A DNA stretch of 64,000 bases from Aureibaculum algae (GTDB lineage: Bacteria; Bacteroidota; Bacteroidia; Flavobacteriales; Flavobacteriaceae): assembly GCF_006065315.1 (NCBI RefSeq), contig NZ_CP040749.1:4424001-4488000 (forward strand), read 5' to 3'. Made by a program: the position numbers and the translations under genes. Shown piece after piece: positions 12,243-39,934 of this stretch. A model generated the notes under the pieces. That model was not told the DNA's origin and did not search any database. It was given only the letters and a program-made list of their open reading frames with translations. The first letter of the stretch is position 1, and the number at the start of each line of letters is the position of its first letter.

Positions 12243-12250
12243 CTTTTACA

Positions 12251-13180: not shown

Positions 13181-13189
13181 AATAATAAT

Positions 13190-13939
13190 TTAAGATTTGG
13201 TGTTAAATTCTCTTTTGATATCTATATCATAGGTAAAATAATCTGTATGATAGTAGACTATATTATATTCTACTGGCCGTTCTCCAGTATCTAACACTAT
13301 TCTTTCTCTTTGTAATAAGGCAACATCTTTTCCTAAATCTAGCATTGCCGCAATCTTGTAATCCGCTTTGATTGCCCTTAATTTTTCCTTAGATAAGGCT
13401 ACAATCACATCGTGTTTTTCCTCTAGCAATTCATACAATGGTCTCATAAAATTTTCATCTCCTTTAATGCCCACTCTCGGATGAAAATAAGAAACTGAGT
13501 ATAAATATTTTGCGTTTTTTGAACCCCTTATTTTTTCTAATTTCCAAACTTTCTTTTTGGCATCAATTGATAATGCCTTACAAACATCTTCTTCTGGAGT
13601 TATCAATGATATATTAACAAGATAATTTACCACTTCAATGCCCTGGTTTTTCATTTCTTTGGTAAAAGAAATCCAATTATCCAATCGCATTAATATTCTT
13701 TTGGTTGTTACCTTTGAACCCACTCCTTTTTTACGCTCAATTAACCCTTCATTTACCAATCTATTAAGTGCATGTCTTATAGTGTTTCTAGACACTCCCA
13801 ACTTTTTTGCCAAGCTAACTTCTTTAGGTAAAAATGAATCTCCATTTTTATACTCCTCTTTAGTGATAAGCTCTCTTAAATAAACTTCAATCTGTGCATG
13901 AAGTGGAACAGGGCTGTCTAAATCTAATTTAAAATCCAT
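13190..13939 (-). CDS. GntR family regulator with UTRA domain
   Basis: The 249-residue protein has an N-terminal winged helix (PLHAQIEVYLRELITKEEY, then KLGVSRNTIRHALNRLVNEG and the wing IERKKGVGSKV). A C-terminal UTRA effector domain (about residues 85-245) typically binds a sugar or sugar phosphate in this HutC-type subfamily. It lies inside the mannose operon, 4 bases after the interrupted glycosidase gene and 9 before the kinase gene, so it likely controls its own operon. A strong candidate operator is the dyad at 22703-22720 in front of manA. Confidence 0.92.
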   Translation of the reverse strand: MDFKLDLDSPVPLHAQIEVYLRELITKEEYKNGDSFLPKEVSLAKKLGVSRNTIRHALNRLVNEGLIERKKGVGSKVTTKRILMRLDNWISFTKEMKNQGIEVVNYLVNISLITPEEDVCKALSIDAKKKVWKLEKIRGSKNAKYLYSVSYFHPRVGIKGDENFMRPLYELLEEKHDVIVALSKEKLRAIKADYKIAAMLDLGKDVALLQRERIVLDTGERPVEYNIVYYHTDYFTYDIDIKREFNTKS

Positions 13940-13943
13940 CTTG

Positions 13944-15233: not shown

Positions 15234-15245
15234 AATAATTAATTT

Positions 15246-17648: not shown

Positions 17649-17655
17649 TTTGTGT

Positions 17656-22743: not shown

Positions 22744-22798
22744 TTTGTCAGAACATTAAAAAATCCTACCTTTGATTAAGCTAACTAAACCGGTGTAG
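22744..22798 (+). promoter_or_regulatory. lacI promoter with LacI-type operator
   Basis: -33 TTTG at 22744-22747, a 19-bp spacer, and -7 TACCTTTG at 22767-22774 match the Bacteroidetes promoter exactly. At the expected transcription start lies CTAAACCGGTGTAG (22785-22798). It differs by one base from the perfect dyad at 23838-23851. CCGG-centred palindromes are typical LacI-family operators, so autoregulation is likely. Confidence 0.75.
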
Positions 22799-22812
22799 TT
22801 ATTTTGAAAAAA

Positions 22813-23823
22813 ATGTACTTAAAAGATATTGCAAGCGACTTAAACCTCTCCAAGACTGCCGTTTCTCTTGTGCTTAATAATAGAGGTAACGAAAATAAAA
22901 TAAGTCAAAAAACTCAAAAAAGAATTATTGATTATGCTAAAAAGCATAATTATAAACCGAATCAGCTTGCCCGTGGATTAAGTCGAGGGAAAAGCGAAAC
23001 TATCGGGTTAATTATACCTAATATTTCGGATATTTTTTACGCTAAAATAGCAAGTCATATCGAGAAAAAAGCCAAATTGTATGGATATACGGTAGTTTAC
23101 AGTAGCTCTAATGAAAATCCGGAAATTGAAAGTGAATTAATTAGATCAATGTTAAACCGTCAAGTAGATGGATTGATAATTGCCTCGACACAACAAAATC
23201 AGTCTGATATTCAGATTTTGAAAGACTTAAATTTCCCGTTTGTATTAATTGATAGACACTACCCCAATATTGAAACTAATTTTGTTATTGTTGATAACTT
23301 TGGTGGAACTAAAGATATAACTCAGCATTTAATAAAAAATGGAAGAAGAAAAATTGGATTTATTACAATTAAATCTAATTTAGATGCTATAGAGCAAAGA
23401 TTATTGGGTTACCAAGATGCTATTAAAGCAAATAATTTAGAAATTAAAAGTGAGAATATTAAGCAATTAGATGTTGTTGATTATCAAAAAGAAATGAAAC
23501 AAGCAATTAGTGATTTGGTAAAGCCATCAGTTAATGTAGATGCCATTGTATTTTCTACTCATTATTTAACAGCATCTGGATTGAGAGAACTAAAATTATT
23601 AAAGTTTAAAGTACCTCAGCAGGTTGCTCTTGTCAGTTTTGATGAACTAGGAGCATTCGATTTGGTTGAACCGCCAATTACAACTAGTAAGCAACCAGTG
23701 CTCGATATTGGAAATCTTGCTGTTGAAATTTTGGTAAATGACATTGAAAATAAAAATTTAAAGATTGAAAATAAAAATGTATTGAAAACCAAACTCTTAA
23801 TTCGTAAATCTTGCGGAATATAA
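22813..23823 (+). CDS. LacI family transcriptional regulator
   Basis: The 336-residue protein starts MYLKDIASDLNLSKTAVSLVLN, the LacI helix-turn-helix with hinge helix NQLARGLSRGKSETIG near residues 50-62. The rest is a periplasmic-binding-protein-like effector domain. ATG 22813 is preferred; a TTG at 22804 would add three residues. It controls the divergent plus-strand mannoside operon, as suggested by matching operators at 22785 and 23838. No separate promoter is seen before the next gene, so the operon may be read from the lacI promoter. The effector is not known; mannose or a mannonate-type intermediate would fit. Confidence 0.9.
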   Translation: MYLKDIASDLNLSKTAVSLVLNNRGNENKISQKTQKRIIDYAKKHNYKPNQLARGLSRGKSETIGLIIPNISDIFYAKIASHIEKKAKLYGYTVVYSSSNENPEIESELIRSMLNRQVDGLIIASTQQNQSDIQILKDLNFPFVLIDRHYPNIETNFVIVDNFGGTKDITQHLIKNGRRKIGFITIKSNLDAIEQRLLGYQDAIKANNLEIKSENIKQLDVVDYQKEMKQAISDLVKPSVNVDAIVFSTHYLTASGLRELKLLKFKVPQQVALVSFDELGAFDLVEPPITTSKQPVLDIGNLAVEILVNDIENKNLKIENKNVLKTKLLIRKSCGI

Positions 23824-23837
23824 AATTTATCATTTAA

Positions 23838-23851
23838 CTAAACCGGTTTAG
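23838..23851 (+). promoter_or_regulatory. LacI-type operator before the GH38 gene
   Basis: CTAAACCGGTTTAG is a perfect 14-bp palindrome in the 49-bp gap between lacI and the first GH38 gene, 21 bases before its ATG. The same motif with one mismatch lies at the lacI promoter. No TAnnTTTG box is seen in this gap, so the site may act as a roadblock or on an unseen promoter. Confidence 0.75.
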
Positions 23852-23872
23852 CAAAGCTAAAAATCACATAGT

Positions 23873-26800
23873 ATGAAACAACAGAATAATTATCCAGCGA
23901 TTAAAATAATAATTACTATTACTTTATCTTTCTTTTTATTCACCAATGCTTATGCAGATTTAGGTGAACCTATCCCCAAAAAGCCTTCAAGTAATTCTTT
24001 TCATGAAGGTAACGGAAATGGGCATATACAAGAACTAAATACTAACTACAACTTATATAAAATTATTAAAAATGACATAGAAGGTTATAAAAAAATGCTT
24101 TCAGGATCAGAATTCTATTTATATCCTTCAATACGAGAAGATATAAATGTGTCTATGATTGCCCGTGCCACCACAGGTAAAATGGGATTTGAGTTTCTTA
24201 CAGGAGAAGTACCTAAAAATTATACCTCAGACAATGTAACTTTCTTAATGTTAAGTGATATTGATCTAACATTGAAGGAGTCCTTCGACATTTATCTAAA
24301 TGATAAACACTTATTGACATTCAACTCCAATGAAGATGGCACACTTACAGTTACTGACAATCCTGGAAATGGTAATGCCGAATATGGTTTAATGAAAAGA
24401 GATGGCAATGGTGATGGGGTAGGTATATTCCGCCTAACCGTTCCTACCCCATCAATCAAAAAAGGAAAAAGTGCTAAGGTTAAGATTGTTGGTCATAAAA
24501 AAAACTCAAACTGTTGGCTCATGATTTTTAAAGCAACAGATGTGGTTGAACGAATCAAAAAATCAGTTTTTAATGAAGCTGCCTTTGTTCTTAAGGAAAA
24601 AAACGGAACTCTTTATATTGATGCCCCAACACATTTCTCAGGCAAAAAGGTCCATGTTATTAGCGATGGTAATAAAAGTAAGATAAAGGCTTTCAAAGCA
24701 CAAGGAGAATTATCAAAAGTATCTTTCGCTATAAATCCACCAAAAAACAGCTTCTCTATTATTTATGATGGTAACATCATAGATTTAAAATTTGATAAAG
24801 ATGATGGCACAATCTCAAATACAGATATTGAAGGAAAATATCTCTACCACAACATCGCAAATTACAATAATGGTTGGTTTGCTTCATTGACCAAATTATA
24901 CAAGCCCGAGTTTTTTGAAACTTATAATGACTTTTTTGATAAGAAATATGAAAAAGGGCTGGTTTCCATAATGAATTCAAGTCATCAGGATATTGCTTGG
25001 GTAGATCGACCTGAAGTATGTATTATCTTAAGAGATACTTTATTAATAAAACCAATATTAAAAGATGCCTTTACAAGAGATGATTATGGGTTTGATATAG
25101 AAGATGGACTTATGTTACGTGAATACATTGAAAGACATCCTGAATCAGTTGAACGTCTGACTACATTACTAAATAAAAAACTTATTTCAGTTGGAGCAAC
25201 CTATAACTGCCCCTATGAAGATATGTATGATGCCGAAGACCAAGTGCGTCAATTATACTTGGGTAAAAAATGGGTAAAAAAGACTTTTGGAGGGTATGAC
25301 TCTAAAGTTTATTGGAATGTAGATGTACCAGGAAAATCTTTACAAACACCGCAAATACTTAAAAAAGCGGGTGTAGATTATATGATTATCAGTAGACACG
25401 CTAAGGGTATGTTTCATTGGAAAAGCCCTGATGGAAGTTCCGTATTTACCTATTCACCTGGCCACTATGGAAATGATCTACTTTATCTTTCAAGAGACCT
25501 TAACAATAAAATGAAATACGGGGCAGAACAAATTTTATATTGGGAAAATAATTTTGAAGGTGGTGAAATTCACACCCCCTTACTATCAAGTCAAGATATG
25601 CTTCCAGCCATTGATTACTCAGAATTTATAGAGACTTGGAACACCTTCGATTCATTGAAAGATGATAAAGGGGTAGAAAAAAGTGTTTATCTACCTAAAA
25701 TGGAGCTTATGACAGTTGATGAGTTTATGCCCTTGGCAGAGAAAAATGCAACCAAAATAGACACTATCATGGGAGAACGTCCCAATGTTTGGGTTTATAT
25801 TCATGGTCCGGGTCATCATGATGCTCTTACTGCAAGTAGAGAAGCTTCAAAATTACTACCTGCTGCAGAAAAATTTCTTTCAATAGCTAATATTTTGGAC
25901 CCAAAAAAGATGCAATACCCTTATGAAGAGTTTGATGAAGCCTGGCAATCTAAGATCTATCCTGACCACGGTTGGGGAGGACATGATGGTGATATTACTG
26001 ATAACTTATTTAAAGAAAATTTAGTGAAATCGAGAGTTATGGGTCAAAATCTTTTAGATAAAGGGATAGACTATATTTCAAGTAGAATTAAGAAGAATGA
26101 AAAAATTGGCATCCCGATAGTGCTCTTTAATAGTCTTTCATGGAAAAGAACCGACCCTGTAACAACATCTGTTCAATTCGCTAAGGGAGATATGACAAAT
26201 GTAAGTGTACGTACTTCCAATAAAAAGAAAATTTCTACACAAACTAGTAATAAAGTGTATTATGATGATGGAAGTTTAAAAAGTGCGGATATTACTTTTA
26301 TCGCCGAAAATATCCCTTCTATTGGCTATACAACGTATTATATCACCAATGATAAAAAGACCTCTTCAATAAAGCCTAAAAACACGAGTACTTTTTCCTA
26401 TGAAAACCCTTTTTACAAAATAGATTTTGGAAAAGGAGGTATAAATCAAGTTTATGATAAGGAATTTAATAAAGAACTTTTTGTGACTGATAACTTCAAA
26501 GTGGGAGATGTTTTCACCATGCAATCTGTGGGTAATGGTGCAGGAGAATTTGGCGATATTCAGCAACCGAGTATGGAAAATTTTGACAAAGTGAGTCAGC
26601 ACAATCCGGAATGGAAAATTTTGGAAGATGGCCCTGTTTACACAAAATATAGATTAGAACAACAAATCTTACATTCCATAGTGAGACAAGATGTTACCTT
26701 ATACCATAATTTGAAGCGAATTTATTTTGATACGAGTCTACGAAATTGGTCAGGAGAATTATACCGCGAGTTTAGAACGGCCTTCCCCATTAATATGAAC

Positions 26801-27487
26801 AACGCTGAAATTGCCCATGAAGTTCCTTTTGGAAGTGTTAGAGTGGGCAAGGATGAAATAAAGTCAGCAGGCGAACGCTACACACCATTAGGTAAAGACG
26901 TTCACCCTCGAGCAATTATAGATTGGATTTCATCTACAGATGATGATATCTCAATTACATTGAGTTCTTCAGTTGCAGCAGCTGATTGGATAGATCCAAC
27001 CGAAAATAGTGCTGGAAAAGCCGTTTTACAGAACCTATTGTTGGCCAGTAGAACATCATGCCATTGGGAAGGGAACGAATACTCACAAGCAGGCAATCAT
27101 GATTTTCATAATGTCTTAACATCAAATAAGGCAGGAAGTATTCAAGGTCAAAAAATTGCCAAACAAAAAAATGAGCCTTTGTATGTGGTCGTACATCCAA
27201 ATACTTCCAAAAAATCGTTTTTGCCCGAATCATTGAGCTTCTTCTCTATAGATACCGACAATGTTATGATAACAACCATTAAAAAGGCGGAAGATTCTGA
27301 AGAAACAATTGCTCGTATGTACAATGTAAAGGGCGGTAATGAAAAGGTGAACGTTTCATCTTATTTCGACATCAATTTCTACAAACACACTAATATTATT
27401 GAGGAGAATCCTACACCTATAGCTCCTGAATTAAAAATAGGTAAATATGCCATTGAAACCTTTAGTTTAAATATTAATGACTTTTAA
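23873..27487 (+). CDS. GH38-type alpha-mannosidase, secreted
   Basis: The 1204-residue protein has a signal peptide ending near TNAYA. Residues 30-330 form a beta-rich N-terminal region. The GH38 catalytic domain follows: SSHQDIAWVD with H371 and D373 as expected metal ligands, WNVDVPGKS with D484 as the likely nucleophile, and HGPGHHDAL near 645. The C-terminal half has the beta-sandwich domains of GH38 enzymes. GH38 retaining mannosidases need zinc or another divalent ion. First enzyme gene of the plus operon, 49 bases after lacI and 3 bases before the sugar porter gene. Probably periplasmic. Confidence 0.87.
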   Translation: MKQQNNYPAIKIIITITLSFFLFTNAYADLGEPIPKKPSSNSFHEGNGNGHIQELNTNYNLYKIIKNDIEGYKKMLSGSEFYLYPSIREDINVSMIARATTGKMGFEFLTGEVPKNYTSDNVTFLMLSDIDLTLKESFDIYLNDKHLLTFNSNEDGTLTVTDNPGNGNAEYGLMKRDGNGDGVGIFRLTVPTPSIKKGKSAKVKIVGHKKNSNCWLMIFKATDVVERIKKSVFNEAAFVLKEKNGTLYIDAPTHFSGKKVHVISDGNKSKIKAFKAQGELSKVSFAINPPKNSFSIIYDGNIIDLKFDKDDGTISNTDIEGKYLYHNIANYNNGWFASLTKLYKPEFFETYNDFFDKKYEKGLVSIMNSSHQDIAWVDRPEVCIILRDTLLIKPILKDAFTRDDYGFDIEDGLMLREYIERHPESVERLTTLLNKKLISVGATYNCPYEDMYDAEDQVRQLYLGKKWVKKTFGGYDSKVYWNVDVPGKSLQTPQILKKAGVDYMIISRHAKGMFHWKSPDGSSVFTYSPGHYGNDLLYLSRDLNNKMKYGAEQILYWENNFEGGEIHTPLLSSQDMLPAIDYSEFIETWNTFDSLKDDKGVEKSVYLPKMELMTVDEFMPLAEKNATKIDTIMGERPNVWVYIHGPGHHDALTASREASKLLPAAEKFLSIANILDPKKMQYPYEEFDEAWQSKIYPDHGWGGHDGDITDNLFKENLVKSRVMGQNLLDKGIDYISSRIKKNEKIGIPIVLFNSLSWKRTDPVTTSVQFAKGDMTNVSVRTSNKKKISTQTSNKVYYDDGSLKSADITFIAENIPSIGYTTYYITNDKKTSSIKPKNTSTFSYENPFYKIDFGKGGINQVYDKEFNKELFVTDNFKVGDVFTMQSVGNGAGEFGDIQQPSMENFDKVSQHNPEWKILEDGPVYTKYRLEQQILHSIVRQDVTLYHNLKRIYFDTSLRNWSGELYREFRTAFPINMNNAEIAHEVPFGSVRVGKDEIKSAGERYTPLGKDVHPRAIIDWISSTDDDISITLSSSVAAADWIDPTENSAGKAVLQNLLLASRTSCHWEGNEYSQAGNHDFHNVLTSNKAGSIQGQKIAKQKNEPLYVVVHPNTSKKSFLPESLSFFSIDTDNVMITTIKKAEDSEETIARMYNVKGGNEKVNVSSYFDINFYKHTNIIEENPTPIAPELKIGKYAIETFSLNINDF

Positions 27488-27490
27488 ATT

Positions 27491-28834
27491 ATGAAGAAGA
27501 GAATCTTTTTTTACACATTCGTTGCAGCTCTAGGGGGCTTGTTATTTGGATATGATACCGCAGTAATAAATGGGGCTCTTCCATTTTTTACGGATTATTT
27601 TCAATTAACAAACTCAATGCAAGGATGGGCTGTAAGTTCTGCATTAATAGGTTGTATCGTTGGAGCTTTTTTTATTGGTCGCTTAGGTGATAAATATGGA
27701 AGACGAAGTATGCTAAGGGTTATGGCTTTATTCTTTCTAATTTCGGCAATTGGATCAGGTTTAGCAGATAGTTTAACAATATTTGTTGTCTATAGATTTT
27801 TAGGAGGTATGGCTATTGGTGGTGCATCGGTACTTTCACCAATGTACATTACTGAAATTGCACCACCAAAATATAGAGGAAGGCTTACAATTACATTTCA
27901 ACTTTCAATAGTTTTAGGGATTTTAGTAGCATTTTACGCAGATTATTTATTGTTAGATATAGGTGAAAATAACTGGCGTTGGATGTTTGCTTCCGAAGCG
28001 ATACCAGCATTTTTGTTTTTCGGGTTACTATTTTTTGTTGGTAGAAGCCCACGTTGGTTAATTGCAAAAGGAAAATTGGCAGAGGCAAGAGAAGTTATTA
28101 TAAGTGTAAATAATGTTGCTGATGTAGAAAGTACTTTTACAGAAATAAAAGAATCTATTAATACGGATGAAGTTGAAAGCGGTAAAATATTACTTCAAAA
28201 ACCCTATTTTAAATTGGTAATTATTGGGATTCTTATTGGGATGTTCAACCAATTTACAGGAATTAATATTGTAATGTATTATGCTACAGATATTTTTAGA
28301 ACTGCAGGTTTCTCTACGGAATCAGCTATTGGTCAAACTGTTTTAATTGGGATTACAAACTTAGTATTTACCTTAATTGCAATGCAATTAATAGATAAAA
28401 TAGGACGAAAAATCTTACTACTTATTGGCTCTATTGGAATGGCATTATTTTTAGGAATCTTTTCATTTTTCTTCTTAACTGGAACTATGAATTTTGTCCT
28501 AGTAATTTGTTTAATCGGTTTTGTTGCATTTTTTGCAGCTTCTCAAGGTGCTGTAATTTGGGTGTTATTTTCTGAGATGTTTCCAAATAATATTAGATCA
28601 AGAGGGGTTGCAATAGGTACATTTTCACATTGGTTTTTTAACGGGTTAACATCGTTTTTGTTTCCAATTGTAGCTGGTGCCTTTACAAATGGAATGGGAA
28701 CAGGTTACATTTTTGCATTTTATGCTTTAGCAACATTAACAAGTTATTTCTTTTATAAAAAATATCTTATTGAAACGAAAGGAAAATCATTAGAGCAGAT
28801 AGAAAAAGAATTGTTTAAAAATGAAACTAAATAA
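27491..28834 (+). CDS. Sugar porter family MFS transporter
   Basis: The 447-residue protein has 12 predicted membrane segments and the sugar-porter signatures: ALGGLLFGYDTAVING in the first segment, GRLGDKYGRRS between segments 2 and 3, a GRSPRWL version of PESPRWL, QFTGIN in segment 7, and ETKGKSLEQIE at the end. XylE/GLUT relatives act as proton symporters for hexoses or pentoses in the inner membrane. Located between the GH38 and cupin genes, it likely imports mannose released in the periplasm. A decayed fragment of a related transporter gene lies at 39675-39800. Confidence 0.93.
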   Translation: MKKRIFFYTFVAALGGLLFGYDTAVINGALPFFTDYFQLTNSMQGWAVSSALIGCIVGAFFIGRLGDKYGRRSMLRVMALFFLISAIGSGLADSLTIFVVYRFLGGMAIGGASVLSPMYITEIAPPKYRGRLTITFQLSIVLGILVAFYADYLLLDIGENNWRWMFASEAIPAFLFFGLLFFVGRSPRWLIAKGKLAEAREVIISVNNVADVESTFTEIKESINTDEVESGKILLQKPYFKLVIIGILIGMFNQFTGINIVMYYATDIFRTAGFSTESAIGQTVLIGITNLVFTLIAMQLIDKIGRKILLLIGSIGMALFLGIFSFFFLTGTMNFVLVICLIGFVAFFAASQGAVIWVLFSEMFPNNIRSRGVAIGTFSHWFFNGLTSFLFPIVAGAFTNGMGTGYIFAFYALATLTSYFFYKKYLIETKGKSLEQIEKELFKNETK

Positions 28835-28843
28835 TTTAACATA

Positions 28844-29251
28844 ATGAGTTTAATAGAATCTTATTCAGTAAAAGAAGCTGGTTTTAATCCCTTTTTAATT
28901 AGAGAAGGGTGGCAGATTGCTCAACTCAACTTTTTTGAAGAACAGCATATAAATAATATAAATAAAATGGAAGTTCATCATGATACAGATGAGGTTTTTA
29001 TTTTATTGGAAGGAAAAGCAGTTTTAATTTCAGGTGCAATTAAAGATAATGTTATAAAATTTTCAGCAGATATAGTGAAACCTTATGTTGTGTATAATGT
29101 GCCTAAAAATGTATGGCATAATATAGCCATGGAAGAAGGATGTAAATTACTAATTGTAGAAAAATCTGGTACACATATTAATGATGTTGAGTATATGCCA
29201 TTAAATATTGCACAGATAAATGATTTAAAAATTGAAGCTAAAAAATATTAA
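28844..29251 (+). CDS. Small cupin-like protein
   Basis: The 135-residue protein has a single cupin-type beta barrel. The first cupin motif region reads MEVHHDTDEVFILLEGKAVL (residues 44-63) with two adjacent His residues, the second reads VPKNVWHNI, so a metal site is likely. It may be a sugar isomerase, epimerase or mutarotase-like accessory of the oxidative pathway encoded by the following genes. No specific reaction can be named. It follows the transporter by 9 bases. Confidence 0.7.
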   Translation: MSLIESYSVKEAGFNPFLIREGWQIAQLNFFEEQHINNINKMEVHHDTDEVFILLEGKAVLISGAIKDNVIKFSADIVKPYVVYNVPKNVWHNIAMEEGCKLLIVEKSGTHINDVEYMPLNIAQINDLKIEAKKY

Positions 29252-29261
29252 AAGAGAACTT

Positions 29262-29954
29262 ATGGGATTGTGGAATAACGATAAGGAATTATTTGAAATT
29301 GCCAAAAAAGAATTGTTTACGGCTTTAGTGGGCGATGTACTTGATAAAATGGGATACTTACATCAGTTTCTTTCCCCAAATATAAAACCGTTAAGAAAAG
29401 ACATGGTTATTATTGGACGGGCAATGACAGTACTTGAAGCTGATGTTTTTTCAGAATCAGCTAATCAAACCAATAATCCAATGATGAAAAAACCATTCGG
29501 AATTATGTTTGAAGCTCTAGATAGTTTAAAGGAAAACGAAGTCTACATATGCTCCGGATCATCTCCTAGATATGCCTTATGGGGTGGATTAATGAGCACA
29601 AGAGCCCTAAAGTTAAAATCTTCAGGAGCTGTGGTTGACGGATATTCAAGAGACTCAAATGAAATAGAAAAACTAAATTTTCCAACTTTTTCATTAGGCA
29701 CCTATGCACAAGATCAAGGACCTAGAGGTAAAGTTATTGATTATAGAATACCTATAGAATTTAATGGGGTTCACATAAATCCGGGAGATATTGTATATGG
29801 AGATAGAGATGGTGTGTTGATAATTCCAAAAGATGCAGAAAATGAAGCGTTTGAAGGTGCTATTGAAAAGGCAAGAGGTGAAAAATTAGTACAAAAAGCT
29901 TTAGAGGCGGGAATGAGTACCGTAGAGGCATTTAAAAAATTTGGAATTATGTAA
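29262..29954 (+). CDS. RraA-like family protein (putative class II keto-acid aldolase)
   Basis: The start is taken at ATG 29262, ten bases after the cupin gene; an earlier ATG at 29232 would overlap it. About 230 residues. RraA-family features are ALVGDVLDKMGY, the loop SGAVVDGYSRDSNE with the Arg-Asp region that binds substrate and metal in 4-hydroxy-4-methyl-2-oxoglutarate aldolases, and INPGDIVYGDRDGVLIIP. Between cupin and dehydrogenase genes and upstream of a mannonate dehydratase gene, cleavage of 2-keto-3-deoxygluconate to pyruvate and glyceraldehyde is a reasonable guess. RNase E inhibition (true RraA) is unlikely in this context. Confidence 0.85.
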   Translation: MGLWNNDKELFEIAKKELFTALVGDVLDKMGYLHQFLSPNIKPLRKDMVIIGRAMTVLEADVFSESANQTNNPMMKKPFGIMFEALDSLKENEVYICSGSSPRYALWGGLMSTRALKLKSSGAVVDGYSRDSNEIEKLNFPTFSLGTYAQDQGPRGKVIDYRIPIEFNGVHINPGDIVYGDRDGVLIIPKDAENEAFEGAIEKARGEKLVQKALEAGMSTVEAFKKFGIM

Positions 29955-29974
29955 TTTCTTAAAACACCAATTAT

Positions 29975-30772
29975 ATGGACGGAATAAATTTAAAAGGAAA
30001 AAAAGCATTAGTAACAGGTGGCTCACAAGGTATTGGGGCTCAAATTTGTAGAGAATTAGCTTCACATGGTGCAGATGTTTTTATCAATTATTTTACAAAT
30101 AAAGAAAAAGCTGAAATTTTAGCCTCTGAATTAAGAGAAACTTTTAACGTAAACGTATGTATCGGTGTTGCAAATGTCTCAAAACCCAATGAAGTTGAGG
30201 CAATGTTCCAACTTATGGATAAAAAATTAAATGGCATCGATATTTTAATTAACAATGCTGGTTCAGAAAGCAATAGCCATATTTTAGATTTAGATGTTGA
30301 TGAATGGGATCGTGTAATTAATATCAATTTAAAAGGACCTTTTTTATGTGCACAACAAGCCGGTAGAAGAATGGAAAAATCAGGTGGTGGTGTCATTATA
30401 AATATTTCTTCCATTCATGATACTGTCCCAAGGAAAGGTTTAACGCATTATTGTACTGCCAAAGGAGGCTTAAAAATGTTTACAAAATGTTTGGCGCTGG
30501 AACTTGCTGAAAGTAATATTAGAGTGATTTCTGTAGCTCCAGGAGCCATTGAAACAGAAATGAATCGTAAAGAAATTGCAAATTTTGGTGTAGATAAATT
30601 TCAAGGTTGGATACCTCAAGGAAGAATTGGAAATGTAAAAGATGTATCTCCAACCATTGCGTTTTTATGTTCGGATATGGCAAGTTATATGACTGGAATT
30701 GATATATATATTGATGGAGGTTATATGCAATCAACCATACCTTATGATCCTCGTCCTCCTAGAAAAATTTAA
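29975..30772 (+). CDS. SDR family dehydrogenase (putative sugar dehydrogenase)
   Basis: The 265-residue classical short-chain dehydrogenase has the nucleotide-binding TGGSQGIG at residues 14-21, LINNAGS near 92, catalytic Ser in NISSIHD, and the YxxxK pair in HYCTAKGG. It ends in a glucose-1-dehydrogenase-like tail (TGIDIYIDGGYM, then RPPRKI). With a lactonase gene next to it, oxidation of an aldose such as mannose to its lactone is the favoured reaction. SDR aldohexose dehydrogenases that prefer mannose are known from Thermoplasma. A keto-deoxy-acid dehydrogenase is the alternative. Confidence 0.87.
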   Translation: MDGINLKGKKALVTGGSQGIGAQICRELASHGADVFINYFTNKEKAEILASELRETFNVNVCIGVANVSKPNEVEAMFQLMDKKLNGIDILINNAGSESNSHILDLDVDEWDRVININLKGPFLCAQQAGRRMEKSGGGVIINISSIHDTVPRKGLTHYCTAKGGLKMFTKCLALELAESNIRVISVAPGAIETEMNRKEIANFGVDKFQGWIPQGRIGNVKDVSPTIAFLCSDMASYMTGIDIYIDGGYMQSTIPYDPRPPRKI

Positions 30773-30801
30773 GTTTTGATATAAAATTAGAGAACCATAA
30801 A

Positions 30802-31848
30802 ATGATAATATCGACTTTTTTCATCGGCAGTTATACACAAATGCTAACCCCCGAAATAAACGGTTTTGGAGATGGTATATCCACAATCCAACTCAATAAT
30901 ATTACGGGTGAATTAAGTGTTCTTCATACGATGAAGACGATTAATCCAAGTTATTTAGTAATCAGTGAGGATGGTAAATTTTTATATTGTAATACAGAGG
31001 TTGGTCTAGATAAAATGCCAAAAGTTCAGGCATATCAAATCAATGATGACTTTTCATTAGAATTTTTGAATGAACAACTCATTTCAGGAGGGTATCCTTG
31101 TCATATTGAAAAATTGGATAATAATATTTTCGTAGCCTGTTATGAAACAGGAAACATACTTCAATTTCCTTTAGACTCAATTGGAAAACTTTTAAAATGT
31201 ACCAATAATTATCAACACACAGGGGTAAGTATTAATAAAGAACGTCAGGAAAGTGCTCATGCACATCAGGTCGCTATTCATCCGAATAAAAAAGAAGTTT
31301 ATGTTTGTGATTTAGGTATTGATAGCATTAAAGCCTATCATTTTAACGGGACTAAACTTATAGCTGAACCAAACTATGATACTAAAGTTTCTATGGGAGG
31401 TGGTCCTAGACACATGGTATTTAATAAAAATGGAACTTTAGCATATGTTTTAAATGAATTATCTGGCGAAGTTTCAGTCCTGAAATTTATTGAAAATAAA
31501 TTTCAACAGATTAGTACATATAGTTCTATACCTCCCAATTTTAAAGGTATTCCAAGTGCTTCCGCCATAAGAATTCATCCAAATCAAACTTTTTTATATA
31601 CTGCTAACAGAACCATAGACGCCATAACCGTTTTTAAAATAAACAATGAAAAATTAGAAGTAGTTGAGTATAAATATACCGAAGGAAGTGAATTAAGAGA
31701 ATTTAATATTTCTCCTAATGGAAAATGGTTAATTGCCTGTCATCAAAACTCTCATGCCACAGTTGTATATAAAGTACAAAATGATGGAAAATTAATCGAA
31801 AGAAATAGAACAAAAGCAATAAAAACACCAGTTTGTGTTGTTTTTTGA
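30802..31848 (+). CDS. Lactonase family beta-propeller protein
   Basis: The 348-residue protein belongs to the seven-bladed Pgl/lactonase type (PF10282). Repeated blade motifs are INPSYLVISEDGKFLYC, VAIHPNKKEVYVCDLG, GGGPRHMVFNKNGTLAYVLN, IRIHPNQTFLYTANR and FNISPNGKWLIACHQ. There is no clear signal peptide, so it is probably cytoplasmic. Family members include 6-phosphogluconolactonase. Here, after a sugar dehydrogenase and before mannonate dehydratase, it would hydrolyse mannono-lactone to mannonate. Confidence 0.9.
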   Translation: MIISTFFIGSYTQMLTPEINGFGDGISTIQLNNITGELSVLHTMKTINPSYLVISEDGKFLYCNTEVGLDKMPKVQAYQINDDFSLEFLNEQLISGGYPCHIEKLDNNIFVACYETGNILQFPLDSIGKLLKCTNNYQHTGVSINKERQESAHAHQVAIHPNKKEVYVCDLGIDSIKAYHFNGTKLIAEPNYDTKVSMGGGPRHMVFNKNGTLAYVLNELSGEVSVLKFIENKFQQISTYSSIPPNFKGIPSASAIRIHPNQTFLYTANRTIDAITVFKINNEKLEVVEYKYTEGSELREFNISPNGKWLIACHQNSHATVVYKVQNDGKLIERNRTKAIKTPVCVVF

Positions 31849-31895
31849 AACAGTTGACATGTTGTAATAAAATTAATTAAAACATATTTAAAAAG

Positions 31896-32963
31896 ATGAA
31901 ATTAGGATTCGGTTTATATAAACACATGCTAAATACCCAGCACTATAATTTTGCCAAACAATGTGGAGCCACACATCTCGTAATTCATATGGTAGACTAT
32001 TTTGGCCACAACAAGGATAATGCAGACCAGCCTATTGGAGGTAAGGATGGTTGGGGAAAGGCAGGTAGTCCTAGTGATATTTGGTCATTCGAAGATCTTA
32101 TGTCCATTAAAAAAGAAATCAATGATCACGGGTTACAATTAGAGGCTATTGAGAATTTTGACCCTGCCCAATGGCATGATATCTTATTGGATGGCCCAAA
32201 AAAAGAGCTTCAAATGGAAAACTTGAAGCAACTTATCCGCAATGTGGGTAAAGCAGGAATACCCATTTTTGGTTATAATTTTTCATTGGCAGGGGTTGCG
32301 GCAAGAAACCAAGGGCCTTACGCTCGGGGAAAGGCCGTTTCTGTAGGTATGGATGGTGGAGATGATACACCCATTCCCAATGGTATGGTTTGGAATATGG
32401 TTTATGACGAAAACGCCCCAGAAGGTACTTTGCCAAAAATCAACCATGATGAACTGTGGAATCGCCTACAGTATTTTCTGAATGAGATCCTACCGGTTGC
32501 CGAGGAAGCAGGTGTGAAAATGGCAGCCCACCCAGATGATCCACCAATGCCGTATGTTCGCAACACACCAAGATTGGTTTATCAACCCGATATGTACCAG
32601 AAATTGATAGATATGAAACCTAGTCCATCAAATAATTTGGAGTTCTGTTTAGGTTCCATTGCCGAAATGACCGAGGGCGATGTTTATGAGGCAACGAATA
32701 CGTACAGTAAACAGGGTAAGATTGGTTATATCCATTTTAGAAATATCATAGGCAAAGTGCCCAATTACAAGGAGGTATTTGTGGATGATGGTGATATTGA
32801 CATGTTCAAAATCTTAAAAATCCTTAAGAAAAACAATTTTGATGGCGTGCTGATCCCGGATCACACACCGCAAATGACCTGTGACGCCCCATGGTATGCC
32901 GGAATGGCTTATGCCATGGGATATATGAAAGCCGCCATTTCTCTAGTTAATAATAAAAAATAA
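31896..32963 (+). CDS. D-mannonate dehydratase family protein (UxuA-like)
   Basis: The 355-residue TIM-barrel protein has UxuA motifs in order: FGYNFSLAG, GVKMAAHPDDPPMP, LEFCLGSIAEM, IGYIHFRN, DDGDIDM and LIPDHTPQM. These supply the His, Cys, His and Asp metal ligands of mannonate dehydratase (mannonate to 2-keto-3-deoxygluconate). It is somewhat shorter than E. coli UxuA (394) and lacks its usual start, so it may be a diverged subgroup with another aldonate as substrate. It is cytoplasmic and lies 47 bases after the lactonase gene and 9 before the second GH38 gene. Confidence 0.87.
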   Translation: MKLGFGLYKHMLNTQHYNFAKQCGATHLVIHMVDYFGHNKDNADQPIGGKDGWGKAGSPSDIWSFEDLMSIKKEINDHGLQLEAIENFDPAQWHDILLDGPKKELQMENLKQLIRNVGKAGIPIFGYNFSLAGVAARNQGPYARGKAVSVGMDGGDDTPIPNGMVWNMVYDENAPEGTLPKINHDELWNRLQYFLNEILPVAEEAGVKMAAHPDDPPMPYVRNTPRLVYQPDMYQKLIDMKPSPSNNLEFCLGSIAEMTEGDVYEATNTYSKQGKIGYIHFRNIIGKVPNYKEVFVDDGDIDMFKILKILKKNNFDGVLIPDHTPQMTCDAPWYAGMAYAMGYMKAAISLVNNKK

Positions 32964-32972
32964 ACAACACTT

Positions 32973-35900
32973 ATGCATACTAATTTAGTCAAAATCGCTC
33001 TTTTATGTATTTTTTCGCTTAATCCAAAATTTGCACAAAAAATTGAAATTAATGAGGAAATAGTTACTGTTTATTCAACCTCCCTTGTAAAGCGAAACAA
33101 CGGAAATCCGGTCCAGGTAGGTATTATTGAGATAACCGATGAGACTATTAAATCCATAAACGTGGAACTACAATTTCCAGATAGAATTGAAAAATATCAA
33201 TTTAAAGAACTAGATAAAAATCAGCATATTATTTCTTTTGAGTTTCCTGTTCTAAAAAAGCCTGTTAAGGTTAAGGTAAAAATAGCACAAAACGGATCTA
33301 TAATCATGGAAAACACAATACAATTTCTGCCACCAAAAACATGGAAAATTTACGATGTACAAGTTTCACACCATGATTTAGGCTACGCTGATTATTACCA
33401 ACTTATGCGGCGTGATGTTCGAGAAATGGGTATTGAAAATGCCATGGAATATTCCAGAAAAACAGATGGGTGGCCTAAGAATAGTCAGTTTCATTGGACG
33501 ATTGAAACAAGCGAGCCAATGATTCAATATCTATCCGAACAATCAGAAGAGGTTTTAACAGAGTTGCTAGAACGAGTTAATAAAGGTCAAATTGCAATAG
33601 GCGGTGTACACAATTCTGTTTCTACAGAACATCTTGGATATGAAGCTATGGCACGATTGTTTTACACTCCAAACCGTTATGTTAGCGATTGGTTTACTAC
33701 CAAACCATCCAAAACAGCTCTAATTACCGATGTTGTAGGGTTTACAAGGTCGCTTGCTATGTACAGCAAAGAGGCTGATATTCCATACTTTATGTTTGGA
33801 CGTAATTCTACGGTAAAGTCTTTTGATAAAGCTGAAGATGCTGCAGCATTTTACTGGCAATCTCCCGATAAAGATTCTAAAATGACACATAGTAAAGTTT
33901 GGCATTATTACTCACCTGACCGATTGATAAAATATGATACACGAGAAATTGCAGGACTTACTAGACGTTACGAAGCACACAAAAACTATCCATACTCTTG
34001 CATCCTTGCAGAAGATAGTTATGATTTTGGGATGCCAGATTTTAAAAATGTAGAAGCTATAAAAAGTGGAACGCAGAGTATGCTAATCCCACAGTGGTAT
34101 CTAGTACTTTTGACATGTATTTTGAGGATTTAAGTCGTCAACAAAACAAAGAATCCTTTCAAATTTTTGATCAAGATGTTCCGAATGCTTGGGCAGATGA
34201 AGATTTAACTGATGCCGAATATGCAGCAAAAGCAAAAAGATTAAACGCAAGTTTACCAACTACTGAAAAGTGGGCAACATTTGCTTCTGCTTCTGCTCCA
34301 AAAGCCTTTCCTTGGATAGATATTTACCAATCCTACCACAGCTTATTAATGTGGGGCGAACATACTAACGGAGCACATTCTGAAGGCCCTGTTTTTTCAC
34401 CACCATCATTAGACGACCAAACAGCAGCCAATATAACCTATTATGAACTAGAGCAGGAAATGCATCGTGATTTGGTTAGAGAAAGTAAGTTATTTCAAGA
34501 CAAAGTAATAAAAGCCACTGAAACCCTATTTACTAAGCAAATAACTACAAAAAGTAAAAACACCTTAGTGATTAATAATCCGCTTGTGCGTAAACGTTCC
34601 GATTATGTATATTTTGAGATACCTAAAAATAAAGGCGTTCGAAAAATTATTGATAACACAACAGGTAAAGAGGTTGAATTTCAAATTGATGAAAATAATT
34701 TAGCATTCTTTTATGCTCAAGAAGTTCCGTCTCTAGGTTATAAAACCTTTACACTTCATTTAGATAACTCAAAAGCATCAGCAAATTTTAAAACGGAAAC
34801 TTCCCCTAAAATTGAAAATGATTTTTATATCATAACATTTGATGCTAAATCGGGGGGTATTAAAAGTCTATATGATAAGAAGTTAAAACGTGAACTTATA
34901 GACCAAAATGCCAACTTTAAATTAAATGAATATTACTATGAGCGTTTTGAGAGTACCAATTATCAAGAAGGCTCCAAAAAGTATCAAGGTAAAAGTGCAA
35001 CATTCAAAGTACAACGTGGTGCATTTGCCGACATTATTATTTCCAAAGTTGAAGCTGAAGGTTCTAAAGATATTGTACAAAAAGTAACCATTTATAAAAA
35101 CAGTAATCAAATAGATTTTGAAGTTAGTTTTGATAAGGATTCCTCTGGCAGAACTTTGGATGATTATAGAAACTATTCGCCAAAAGGTAAAGAAGGTTTG
35201 TTTTACTGCTTACCATTCAATGTTCCAAACTTCACAATCAAACACGAGCTTGCAGGTGGAATAATGGAACCTATTGAAGACCAAATGGAAGGGTCATCAA
35301 CCGATTATTATTCCATTCAAAATTTTTCTGACATTTCTAATAACGATTGGGGCATAACACTAGCGGTAAAGGATGTCGATTTAGTGGAGTATGGAAAACC
35401 TCGACCTGCCTATTGGAGTAAAGGTGATGATTATGAAAACATCATGAAAAAAGCTAAACATAGTCACTTCTACCTTTATTTACTTAATAATATGTTTTTT
35501 ACCAATGTGAGACAATCACAACCTGGTCCGAAAAATTTCAAATGGTCTGTAAGAAGTCATACTGGAAATTGGAGAGAAGGTAAAGCGTATAATTTTGGAC
35601 GTGATTTTGCTAATCCGCTAACTTCATTTATATCCGTTGGAAAAAAAGAAGGTGTATTGCCTTCAAAATCCAATTCTTTTATTGAATTAGATTCTGAAAG
35701 TATATTATGTTCAACAATTAAACCGGCTGAATCTAATGGAGAGGGGTACATTATGCGTTTTGTAGAGGTCAGTGGCAAAGAACAAATTGTGACTGTTAAG
35801 GCTCATTTTATAAAACAAATTGAAAAAGCTAATTTAACAAATTTAGTAGAGGTTGATCGTAACTACCCACTTCAATTACTTGGGGATAATAGTTTCAAAT

Positions 35901-37375
35901 TTATAATCCCAGCATTTGGATTACGTACCATTCGTGTCGTCCCTGTTAAAAGTCAACTACCCGAAATCGTTAAGTTCATAGGAAGCTCACTATCAGATAG
36001 CAAAATAAATCTTACTTGGAATCTATCTTCATCAAAAAATAACGACATCTCTTATTATAAAGTCTTCAGAAGTAAAACCCCGAATTTCACAACTTCATTA
36101 AGAACGTTTGTGGACAATACCGATAAGCCTAATTTTATTGACGAACCTGTTCTGAATATTAGAGGTTGGCAAAACAATAAATTAGAACCTGAGACTTCTT
36201 ATTATTACAAAGTTGAGGCAATAGGTAAAAACAATAGAGCTGGTAAAGTATCTTCTGAAATACGGGTACAAACGAAAAAAACAGAAGAAGTTAACGAAAA
36301 ACCTAAAAAAGTGCTCGGTTTGGTTTCTACTTTGATAAGTAAAATAACAAACAATAATTATATAGGACTATACTTTTATACAAACATTGAAAAAGACATT
36401 AATAAGTATAACGTTTACAGAAGCACAGAAAAAGATTTTGTTCCTAATAAGACAAATATACTTGCGGAAATGGATGTAACGAAAACCTTCGAACATGTTA
36501 CGCCTCATGGTTTTGCAAAAGCAACCCGCCAACTAAAAGAATACAACCGCCTTTTATTTGTTGATGAAGATATTCAGCCATTTACAACCTATTACTATAA
36601 AGTAGTCGCAGTAGATGATGCAGGACAAATTGGTGATTTCTCAAGAGAAGTGCACACTACTACAGGAATTGCCAATTTAATACTTGTAGGAGCATCCGGA
36701 TTTAGAGAAAGTAGAGAGGTTTCATTTGAGAACCCAAATAATAATGATTGGGAAATAAGGTATACTAAAGATGGTAGCCTACCAACAACTAATTCCACGC
36801 TTTATACAGGGCCATTTGAAATAAATCAAGATGTAATGATTACAGGTTCATTATTCGAAATAGGAACTGATATAGGAAGAGGAACCGTTCATCGTGGTTT
36901 TCAAAAAGTAAAAAATTTCGAAGTGAGCTATGTTACAAAATATGACGAAAAATGGAAAAGTTCTGGAGATTTTGCACTAATTGACAACTACAGAGGAAAT
37001 CTTACATTGGGTAATAATTGGCAAGGCTTTGAAGTAAATGATATGGACGTTACTATAGATTTAAAAAAAGCAACAGATGTGCAATCTGTAGCAGTATCTT
37101 GTTTGCAAAATTTTGGGACATGGGTATTTTTCCCTAATTATATAGAAGTATTTACCTCTGAAGACGGTGAAAATTTCAAATCGGCAGGACGCATAGAAAC
37201 TATAAAAGAATGGCAGCGTTTAGTATCTAAACAAGCCGATTTAACGGTTTCATTCCCAATAACAAATTGCAGGTATGTTAGAGTTTTTGCTCAGAATATT
37301 GGATATATCCCGGAGTGGCATAACTTTTCTGGAGCCAAAGCATGGTTATTTGTAGATGAAATAATAATAAAATAA
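32973..37375 (+). pseudogene. Multidomain GH38-like mannosidase, frameshifted near 34065
   Basis: Frame one (32973-34133, signal peptide ending near KFAQ) carries the GH38 start: SHHDLGYADYY with H133 and D135, and ITDVVGF with D253 as likely nucleophile. It loses homology at KSGTQ. A second frame continues seamlessly as WNAEYANP from 34067 to 37375. The break falls at an A5 run (34061-34065), and one extra A would join the frames. The C-terminal part has two fibronectin III-like domains, a chitobiase-C-like segment (IRYTKDGSLPTTNS) and a terminal F5/8 type C-like domain, so the full protein of about 1467 residues would bind polysaccharide. Loss of function, ribosomal -1 slippage or a sequencing indel are all possible. 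Confidence 0.8.
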
Positions 37376-37387
37376 AGAATTTATAAA

Positions 37388-39619
37388 ATGAATAATATGA
37401 AAGTTACAACAGTTCTTACAAACAAAGTAAAACATAATTCAAAATCGTTACTCAACAACACATTGATTCTTGGTTTGTTTTTGTTAGCAATAAATCAAAT
37501 ATCTGCACAAAAAGAAATCACTCCCGCCGACCCTGAGTTTTATGCTATGGATAGGGAGCATATTGCTTTCGAAGACGAACATGTCATCTTAATAAATTAT
37601 AGAGGTTCTGTCTCTCCAAGACAATATAGTGTAACCCAATTTACCAATGTACAGTTTTTACCCATTAGTAGCAGTCGTTATGAATTCAATTTAAACTTTT
37701 TTGATAAAAATACACAACGTTTAATCGAAGATGATGTGCCTACTAAGTGGAAATCTTGGATAGACGATAGTGGTAGTTACGACCCACTGGGTTCAAACTT
37801 TCGGCCTAATTCACCATCTATAATGGTAACACAAGATGAAAAGTGGCAACCAAACCAATACCATAGAACGGCTACCTTTCATAAAGAATATAATAAAAAA
37901 TGGGCAAGTTTTGCTGCTGAAAGTTGGACTAACGTTTCCTATGAAGATGATGAAGTTTTTATAAAACTAAAACTTACCAACAGAAACTCCAAAAACATGG
38001 AGATGACAATTATTCCAAATCAGGTAGCTGACCAATTGACTCGGCATTTTAAAGAAGGGAATACAAAGTCAAAAACTATTGATGCCTTTACTATTGGAAG
38101 TGAAATGGCTCATGCCCGTGTTTCTTCTTCCATACAAAAAACAAGTGATCAAGGTTTTGAAATAAGCATTGCTCCTGGAAAAACAGAAACGTACTATTTT
38201 GCTGTTAAATTTTACGAACCAGATAATGGAACTCCTGAAATTTCTCAGTCAAATATTAAAGAACGTATGGAACGTGCTGATAAAAAAACACGTGATATGT
38301 TAGCTTGGGCATACAATAAGCTTCCAAAATTCAAGAGTATGAACAAAGACCTTGAAAAGTATTATTACCGTTGTATTTTATCTGTATTAATGAGTCGTTA
38401 TGAAAACCCTAACTATATATCAGATATATTTTGGGCCGTAGGTACATGGCCTTACACTATTAGTTGGGATACATCATATTCCTCTGATTTAATTGCTATG
38501 CTTGAACCAGAGAGTTTGAAAGCTGCTATTTTAACCGATTTTGAGCAAGTACAATTAAAAAGAACTTATGTAGGTTGGAACGGAGCACATTGGGATATTC
38601 TATACATTCAAGAACCTTTTGCACTTCAAATAATGATTGAAGCTTACATTAGACATACTGGTGACTATTCTATTTTTGATGAAAAAGCTGCTGGTGTTAC
38701 TGTTTGGGAATGGATGCAACGTTGGGTAGACGAGCTGCAAAATAACTATACCAACGAAATAGGCCTAATTGACGTAGGCTACAATACCGAAAAAATTATT
38801 GAAATCCGAACCGATGGCTACAATCATGCGGTGCCAATTACGAATACTTTAACAATCGACTTATTATACACTATGTCAGATTGGGCAAAAAAACGCAATG
38901 AAAAAAAGATTCAGAAAACTTATTTTAATGATGCTGAAAAACTAAAATCATTGGTTAATAAATATATGTGGAATGAGGAACTAGGTTGGTTCGATAATTA
39001 TTATCCTGACGGAACACGAGGCACTATTTGGACGTTTCATTTGTTCGATCTACTGGGGGCTGATTTTCTTCCTTACCACCAATTATATCGTTTGGTAAGC
39101 CACTTACAAGAAGGTGAGTTTTTGGGAAAATATGGCGTTTATTCTATTGCTCGTAGAGATAAAGTGCATTGGGATTTAATTGACTCTGACTGGGGAGGTG
39201 GCGGACAATATGCCGGTATGCCTGGGCGTATTTCACGTAACTTGTACCAAAAAGGTTTTGCTGGTAAAGGTTGGGATGTACTAAAACGTAATATTAGATA
39301 TGTAGACCATTTCCCATATCTGCCACAAAATCCAAGAATAGACATTCCTGAACAAGACCGTTCGTCAATGCCTTTAGAAATTTCGGCTGGTGCTGGAATG
39401 GAAGCTATTGTTTTTGGAACTTTTGGAGTTAAAATAGAACAAGACAAATTAACTATTAAACCATTTAATCACGAAGACATTGGTGAGGCGACACTAACTA
39501 ATATCACATGGAAGGGCAGAACATTCGGGATTCAATTGACCCGTAAAACATTCTCCGTGTATGAAGGAGAAAAGTTGATCACTACCGAATTTTATGGGGA
39601 AGAAGTGGTAATCAAATAA
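37388..39619 (+). CDS. Secreted six-hairpin-type glycosidase-like protein, family unassigned
   Basis: The 743-residue protein has a long-leader signal peptide ending ISAQ near residue 41. The N-terminal half is beta-rich. The C-terminal half looks like an (alpha/alpha)6 barrel: VGTWPYTISWDTSYSSDL, GWNGAHWDILYIQEP, WNEELGWFDNYY, and DSDWGGGGQYAGMPGR, followed by a small beta domain. Acidic residues in SWDTSYSSD and DSDWGG are candidates for catalysis, by analogy with GH37/GH63/GH65-type barrels. I do not recognise a specific family. Its place between GH38 and GH92 genes argues for a mannoside or glucoside substrate. Confidence 0.75.
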   Translation: MNNMKVTTVLTNKVKHNSKSLLNNTLILGLFLLAINQISAQKEITPADPEFYAMDREHIAFEDEHVILINYRGSVSPRQYSVTQFTNVQFLPISSSRYEFNLNFFDKNTQRLIEDDVPTKWKSWIDDSGSYDPLGSNFRPNSPSIMVTQDEKWQPNQYHRTATFHKEYNKKWASFAAESWTNVSYEDDEVFIKLKLTNRNSKNMEMTIIPNQVADQLTRHFKEGNTKSKTIDAFTIGSEMAHARVSSSIQKTSDQGFEISIAPGKTETYYFAVKFYEPDNGTPEISQSNIKERMERADKKTRDMLAWAYNKLPKFKSMNKDLEKYYYRCILSVLMSRYENPNYISDIFWAVGTWPYTISWDTSYSSDLIAMLEPESLKAAILTDFEQVQLKRTYVGWNGAHWDILYIQEPFALQIMIEAYIRHTGDYSIFDEKAAGVTVWEWMQRWVDELQNNYTNEIGLIDVGYNTEKIIEIRTDGYNHAVPITNTLTIDLLYTMSDWAKKRNEKKIQKTYFNDAEKLKSLVNKYMWNEELGWFDNYYPDGTRGTIWTFHLFDLLGADFLPYHQLYRLVSHLQEGEFLGKYGVYSIARRDKVHWDLIDSDWGGGGQYAGMPGRISRNLYQKGFAGKGWDVLKRNIRYVDHFPYLPQNPRIDIPEQDRSSMPLEISAGAGMEAIVFGTFGVKIEQDKLTIKPFNHEDIGEATLTNITWKGRTFGIQLTRKTFSVYEGEKLITTEFYGEEVVIK

Positions 39620-39900: not shown

Positions 39901-39934
39901 AAAAATAAAATTAGTATTGAAAAAATTAAATAGT

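Follow-up and report, generated by a model that had tools for sequence, protein, structure and literature searches.

Gene content and regulation of the operon

The stretch of DNA analysed here (the window) covers 64,000 nucleotides, positions 4424001 to 4488000, of the genome of the flavobacterium Aureibaculum algae, which consists of one contig (NZ_CP040749.1) of 5,168,958 bases. It contains an operon in which genes that may serve the oxidation of mannose are enclosed by genes of alpha-mannosidase families. Their order, all on the + strand, is GH38 (glycoside hydrolase family 38), sugar porter, cupin, RraA-like protein, short-chain dehydrogenase/reductase (SDR), propeller lactonase, UxuA-like protein and a second GH38, with a spacing of 3-47 bases. 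A preliminary description of this DNA had placed the genes from porter to UxuA-like in one operon, as found here; it had also described them as bracketed by GH38 and GH92 genes, and mannosidase genes do flank them, but both direct neighbours belong to GH38 and the GH92 genes lie farther out. The + strand run from a lacI gene to a glycosidase-like gene (22804-39619) has gaps of 3-49 bases, except for a 40-base overlap of two pieces of the second GH38 gene, and because of this tight same-strand packing it is likely one transcription unit. A close relative is Aureibaculum luteum (locus L005), whose UxuA-like protein is 99% identical.

The run begins with the gene of a LacI-family regulator (22804-23823; the frame's first start codon is TTG 22804), which scores 38.6 bits with LacI and 94.2 bits with Peripla_BP_1. 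Then follow the first GH38 alpha-mannosidase-like gene (23873-27487; Glyco_hydro_38N, 80.1 bits), whose product has a hydrophobic N-terminus resembling a signal peptide, and a major facilitator superfamily (MFS) sugar porter (27491-28834; Sugar_tr, 388.6 bits; TIGR00879, 378.9 bits, cut-off 237.8). The small cupin-like protein (28844-29251) shows its motif by eye, and no family exceeded its cut-off in the profile search (Cupin_2 reached 14.8 bits, cut-off 27.2). For the RraA-like gene (29262-29954; PF03737, 119.6 bits) the listed frame opens at TTG 29232, and ATG 29262, where homologues begin, is the likelier start. The SDR (29975-30772) is a candidate mannose (aldohexose) 1-dehydrogenase, just over the cut-off of the glucose 1-dehydrogenase model PRK07231 (223.0 bits, cut-off 215). 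It is followed by a seven-bladed propeller lactonase (30802-31848; PF10282, 301.9 bits, cut-off 21.7) and by the divergent UxuA-like protein, a candidate D-mannonate dehydratase (31896-32963; PF03786, 190.5 bits, gathering score 23.7). The second GH38 gene is split into a first piece (32973-34133; 55.9 bits) and a later piece in another frame (34094-37375), and a glycosidase-like gene of 743 aa (37388-39619), which matches PF22422 at its cut-off (27.1 bits against 27), closes the run. Judged by eye, export-like hydrophobic N-termini occur in the GH38 proteins and the glycosidase-like protein, and none was seen in the SDR, the lactonase, the UxuA-like protein or RraA. This pattern fits a release of mannose outside, its uptake by a non-phosphorylating porter and its oxidation inside.

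Two copies of a LacI-type palindromic operator accompany the regulator gene. One (22785-22798) lies directly before lacI and differs by a single mismatch from the other, the perfect palindrome CTAAACCGGTTTAG (23838-23851), which stands in the gap that separates lacI from the first GH38 gene. A search of the 5.17 Mb genome allowing one mismatch finds these two sites and no other; with two mismatches allowed, the window has 2 sites against 0.24 expected, a number that 3 of 100 shuffles reached. The operator core also precedes LacI or GH38 genes in L005, L021, L026 and L044 (4 of 80 related loci, by regular expression; many of the loci begin inside the operon). Because the operator pair is unique in the genome, the LacI regulator is probably private to this operon, which would tie the oxidising enzymes to the mannosidase.

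Two gene contexts of the UxuA-like family

By sequence, the UxuA-like protein represents a divergent subfamily that is not filed as a uxuA equivalog. Canonical UxuA proteins are 24-30% identical to it, and the genome holds two canonical copies elsewhere, from which it is distinct, so that its assignment as an ordinary UxuA of uronate metabolism was rejected. Residues H212, D214, C251, H280, R282, D322 and H323 are invariant among 8 aligned proteins, three of them canonical, and also among 38 that include the window's; they belong to the motifs HPDDPP, C, HxR and DH, which we take to be metal-site and catalytic. The protein is very probably a mannonate dehydratase that converts D-mannonate to 2-keto-3-deoxygluconate (KDG).

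Relatives of this protein were taken from a species-level genome collection as the best 80 of 288 places. The main counts refer to the 59 loci of at least 15 kb, the other 21 being shorter; genes were called by BLAST with reference proteins from the window and its relatives (E <= 1e-8, with identity thresholds, from 20% for GH38). The loci share ancestry, and Fisher values therefore overstate the associations. Genes of GH38, GH92 or GH76 were present in 45 of the 59 loci (GH38 in 42), the uronate isomerase gene uxaC without mannosidases in 6, and neither in 8; the corresponding numbers for all 80 loci are 51, 7 and 22. Fourteen control loci, three of them shorter than 20 kb, contained no GH38, GH92 or GH76 gene by BLAST; they comprise 12 from the family (8 of canonical UxuA, 4 of distant UxuA relatives) and the two canonical loci of the genome itself.

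The two contexts differ in gene content. The 45 mannosidase-type loci have RraA and the porter without exception, the operon's type of SDR (SDR_A) and the cupin in 40 each, and the lactonase in 34. In the six UxaC-only loci, SDR_A, cupin, lactonase and porter are each absent, whereas a different SDR (SDR_B) and an Nramp-family transporter occur in five each and RraA in three. L031, one of the six, is an odd case outside the block type: it combines its divergent UxuA-like gene with a canonical UxuA and an SDR of the UxuB type. When short loci are included, the full UxaC-SDR_B-Nramp-UxuA-like block is seen in L040, L041, L049, L056, L062 and L063, four of which have RraA; L049 and L056 have an RraA gene farther away on the same contig, at a distance of about 29 and 56 kb. 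Conservation of the set beside uronate rather than mannoside genes, which the preliminary description had named as an argument against its own pathway, is therefore limited to the UxuA-like gene and, in those four blocks, RraA.

A route from uronate gives mannonate without a lactone, which fits the UxaC loci without a lactonase, and a route from mannose needs an aldose dehydrogenase and yields a lactone, which fits the presence of both genes in most mannosidase-type loci. The comparison gives good support to the view that the two contexts converge at D-mannonate as the node. A chance neighbourhood was rejected, as the same genes come together again in other genera, in a different order, and the operator pair is unique in the genome. 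Across Bacteroidota, sequence comparison indicates that the cassette is widespread and common.

In all six blocks the Nramp-family transporter lies between the SDR and the UxuA-like gene, perhaps as metal supply for the enzymes or as a sugar-acid carrier. The Verrucomicrobiota loci L072, L077 and L081 have an SDR with 46-49% identity to the one of the UxaC blocks, located immediately before the UxuA-like stretch or not far from it.

A proposed route from mannose to pyruvate

The best reading of the operon is a conversion of mannose through mannonate to KDG, and every enzyme activity assigned to it is a prediction. Exported GH38 (and GH92) enzymes would release mannose outside the inner membrane, and the porter would import it unphosphorylated. 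The SDR would oxidise C1 to give mannono-lactone, the propeller protein would open the lactone, and the UxuA-like protein would dehydrate D-mannonate to KDG, which RraA, as a metal-dependent aldolase of the pyruvate type, would cleave to pyruvate and glyceraldehyde; the cupin would assist at some step. We consider it fairly probable that the locus is a LacI-controlled operon that oxidises mannose from alpha-mannosides, without phosphorylation, via mannonate and KDG to pyruvate. The operon is real, probably regulated and widely conserved, and its content suggests a mode of action resembling a mannose pathway without phosphorylation.

The SDR and the lactonase together probably turn mannose into mannonate. 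The SDR is a candidate mannose dehydrogenase, of a kind whose substrate cannot be given by sequence alone. The lactonase can be placed clearly in its family but not by substrate; its score with the 6-phosphogluconolactonase equivalog model PRK11028 is below the cut-off (156.9 against 370). Among 44 loci with both SDR_A and RraA, the PF10282 lactonase occurs alone in 35, an M24-fold gene alone in 6 (L059, L061, L066, L069, L076 and L079), neither in 3 and both in none, a distribution uncorrected for kinship. Because the two are never found together, the M24-fold protein may be a replacement for the lactonase. Our guess for the cupin is that it handles the anomer or the lactone.

The aldol cleavage is the weakest step. 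The RraA model (pLDDT 91.3) matches PDB entries led by RraA-type structures and 3noj, with some titled otherwise, such as 5ir2; Foldseek TM-scores against 3noj, a 4-hydroxy-4-methyl-2-oxoglutarate/4-carboxy-4-hydroxy-2-oxoadipate (HMG/CHA) aldolase, are 0.75/0.73, so that the fold is shared at a sequence identity of 24%. With the NCBIfam models for these aldolases the protein stays below the cut-offs (61.1 against 179 and 55.2 against 304.5). Its residues G109, R130, D131 and E134 match by eye the motif G-x20-R-D-x2-E/D, which we take to mark class II pyruvate aldolases of the RraA superfamily; the RD pair is invariant in 18 of 18 aligned proteins, and Q, K or G takes the final place of the motif in 6 of these 18.

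The neighbours of RraA recur. Among 299 genomes of the family (UxuA-like and RraA surveys were assumed to cover the same set, from matching handles and totals), RraA 61-100% identical to the window's, at E <= 1e-50, is present in all 15 genomes with a UxuA-like protein of 76-100% identity, versus 2 of the 284 others. Three genomes whose UxuA-like protein is 55-57% identical have no RraA at this threshold; in them the UxuA-like gene is followed by an SMP-30-like gene (PF08450 for L100, by similarity for the others) and a DUF4432-type gene. Of the 22 places with a close RraA, 12 have a UxuA-like gene no more than 10 kb away; 7 have an enolase-superfamily gene at such a distance (L150, L152, L155, L156, L159, L160 and L161; some assigned by family, the rest by 71-100% identity to those). 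The remaining three (L153, L154 and L157) are near neither dehydratase type, and L154 has the series GH38-SDR-cupin-porter-RraA without UxuA-like. In a tree made by a quick method, with weak inner support, the window's RraA stands among sequences from mannosidase, UxaC and enolase contexts, and mannosidase-type loci of Chitinophagaceae and Sphingobacteriaceae carry a distant second RraA clade, 46-50% identical.

Because upstream modules swap around it, RraA would act after the dehydratase. The loci L160 (3682-10350) and L161 (3282-10349) combine a GH2 with beta-galactosidase domains, an SMP-30-like protein (30% and 28% identity), an SDR, an enolase-superfamily gene and RraA; the enolase-superfamily proteins are 80-81% identical to that of L118, whose best score, under the cut-off, is with gluconate/galactonate dehydratase. 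For galactose this cassette may be the counterpart of the mannose kit. Recurrent neighbours and fold lean somewhat towards RraA as a KDG aldolase. More tentatively, the RraA clade may form a new class of 2-keto-3-deoxy-hexonate aldolases and supply the final step shared by all versions of a modular kit for sugar oxidation in Bacteroidota, composed of glycosidase, aldose dehydrogenase, lactonase, aldonate dehydratase and RraA. Its interchangeable front ends would serve mannose (GH38/GH92 and UxuA-like), glucuronate (UxaC and UxuA-like) and probably galactose (GH2, SMP-30-like and enolase superfamily, in L160 and L161), with the distant RraA clade in the same slot in Chitinophagaceae and Sphingobacteriaceae.

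Other RraA genes have different company. At L044 (16150-19658), L152 and L155, RraA occurs with an SDR, an enolase-superfamily gene and a RidA-domain protein, the enolase-superfamily protein of L044 scoring best, under the cut-off, as muconate cycloisomerase-like; this is perhaps another sugar-acid set, and anhydrogalactose is our guess for its substrate. In L120 a RidA-like frame lies near a distantly related RraA (34%), and M81-like frames occur in both L120 and L053; these RidA-like and M81-like assignments were made by eye.

Several observations weigh against the oxidation of mannose to pyruvate as proposed. The UxuA-like protein is under both NCBIfam cut-offs for mannonate dehydratase (TIGR00695, 125.5 against 199.55; PRK03906, 153.7 against 191). 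PRK07231 also accepts the UxaC-type SDR and another SDR, and the nearest solved relatives of the operon's SDR are FabG as much as glucose dehydrogenase. No enzyme using glyceraldehyde was recognised in the operon. Neither context is seen in eight of the 59 loci, namely L053 and seven from Verrucomicrobiota. Of the 45 mannosidase-type loci, 25 have a solute-binding-like protein, 24 a crotonase and 24 a CoA-transferase III, encoded between the SDR and UxuA-like genes; the pathway has no CoA step and does not use them. The genome also encodes a phosphomannose isomerase (PMI) catalytic domain and three ROK proteins, one of them in the window (12251-13180). At L044 an SDR_A-UxuA-like operon lacks an RraA of its own, the one at this locus being placed some 5 kb further along, together with an enolase-superfamily gene; L163 (genome G248) has SDR_A, lactonase, UxuA-like, GH76 and GH92 and no RraA in 20 kb, and L157, which holds the sole close RraA of that genome, is free of dehydratase genes in its vicinity. 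KDG kinase (KdgK) and 2-keto-3-deoxy-6-phosphogluconate (KDPG) aldolase (KdgA) are present in 6 of the 45 mannosidase-type loci, so that RraA is not simply their substitute, and in L038 and L042 both directly follow the UxuA-like gene with RraA retained.

A supposed absence of PMI from the genome had been dropped, as PF01238 found none, yet PF20511 found one. Loci with the solute-binding-like protein, crotonase and CoA-transferase are, for example, L007, L010-L013, L020, L021, L024, L027-L029, L033-L035, L038, L042, L046, L047, L050, L052, L054, L055 and L059; no export signal was seen in the solute-binding-like protein of L046.

The loci with KdgK and KdgA suggest a semi-phosphorylative alternative, in which mannose is oxidised to KDG as above, KdgK and KdgA take over, and RraA tautomerises, decarboxylates or repairs a 2-keto intermediate. 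L038, L042 and L163 would agree with it, as would the three KDPG-aldolase-family genes of the genome, and such an ending is predicted for mannan-degrading haloarchaea in the part of that study on mannose (PMC10963439). FlDet, an RraA-like enzyme from Flavobacterium, moreover, is described in the text bearing on its activity as a 2-keto-3-deoxy-glucarate dehydratase/decarboxylase and not an aldolase (PMC8563752), and by sequence such a role for RraA ranks second. However, the substrate of FlDet is a diacid and KDG has no second carboxylate, and the RraA genes beside PF14592 lyase genes, which we guess to be the context of FlDet, are distant from the window's (L128 32%, L132 29% identity). No KdgK is found in the read stretch of 39 of the 45 loci, though it may lie elsewhere, and the several upstream routes beside which RraA is repeatedly found would all lead to a 2-keto-3-deoxy-hexonate. 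We regard the semi-phosphorylative ending as rather unlikely. Of the mannose oxidation pathway proposed in the preliminary description, the steps as far as KDG, tied to alpha-mannosidase families by comparison, are retained, but RraA as KDG aldolase is not established, as it is kept beside KdgK and KdgA in L038 and L042; likewise its claim of a route with no kinase applies to this operon, among whose proteins a profile search found no sugar kinase, but not to its relatives in general.

That the cassette serves another sugar acid or aldose appears quite improbable. GH38, GH92 and GH76 act on mannosides, and genes of these types are the common factor across the loci. A side-chain sugar might be processed, or mannosylglycerate, with mannose passing through ROK kinase and PMI, for both of which the window or the genome has candidates. 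The mannosylglycerate hydrolase model PRK09819 gives a weak match with the first GH38 (90.4 bits against a cut-off of 1138), and the glycosidase-like protein has its PF22422 match. But the UxaC blocks indicate mannonate, and mannosylglycerate would yield mannose too. Equally improbable is an SDR that acts after the dehydratase on KDG or its product instead of mannose: sequence separates SDR families poorly and the UxaC-type SDR gives KduD- and gluconate 5-dehydrogenase-like scores, yet SDR_A tracks the lactonase context, is replaced by the other SDR in the UxaC blocks (SDR_A in 0 of 6), and would be the lactone maker that a lactonase requires.

Beyond the tight run, a GH92 mannosidase gene (39917-42604, + strand) starts 297 bases past its end and is interrupted by an in-frame TAA at 41552-41554 (pieces 39917-41554 and 41600-42604). 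The second GH38 gene has a frameshift at 34094-34133, corresponding to a single open frame of 1467 aa in A. luteum; both lesions are either real decay or assembly errors. Two further GH92 genes (15246-20886) lie on the opposite strand, in a minus-strand set (11079-20886) that also contains a GntR/UTRA regulator, the ROK-family gene and an MFS carrier, and that may take mannosides along a phosphorylative route next to the oxidative one.

Related pathways and significance

The oxidative chemistry of mannose is itself known or proposed in archaea. The KDG aldolase of Thermoplasma acidophilum belongs to another family than the RraA-like protein. Enzymes of this archaeon (AldT, ManD and KDG aldolase) ran the oxidative route in vitro, in a cell-free cascade that leads, as proposed here and likewise kinase-free, from mannose through mannonolactone, mannonate and KDG to pyruvate and glyceraldehyde (PMC6901390). 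In the passages of that paper on the cascade the lactone is said to open spontaneously, whereas the operon has a lactonase gene, and no mannosidase operon figures in them. An oxidative route was also suggested, in a passage on mannose use, for H. lacusprofundi (PMC3102087), and non-phosphorylative deoxysugar routes were proposed in a section of a paper on marine SAR202 (PMC10444878). For mannan-degrading haloarchaea, the text on mannose predicts a pathway with manD beside mannanases; in Natronoglomus, mannonate dehydratase genes lie within the mannanase cluster and a figure legend names an RraA, but the enzymes are those of beta-mannan (GH5, GH26 and GH2) and the ending is semi-phosphorylative (PMC10963439).

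The hexuronate pathway (UxaC-UxuB-UxuA-KdgK-KdgA) shares the intermediates D-mannonate and KDG and the PF03786 family, but begins from uronate. Among the matches listed in the open-licence PMC literature, there was no description of this Bacteroidota cassette and no account of RraA as a KDG aldolase. The statement in the preliminary description that no such bacterial locus was known does not hold as a claim of rarity, given how common the cassette is and the archaeal parallels.

If the proposed pathway is correct, many Bacteroidota with mannosidase loci would use an oxidative mannose route that annotation based on a kinase and PMI has missed, and many genes now labelled RraA family in the sugar loci of these bacteria would acquire a function open to direct assay. 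The cassette would also offer a worked case in which two alternative upstream modules fix D-mannonate as a metabolic node.

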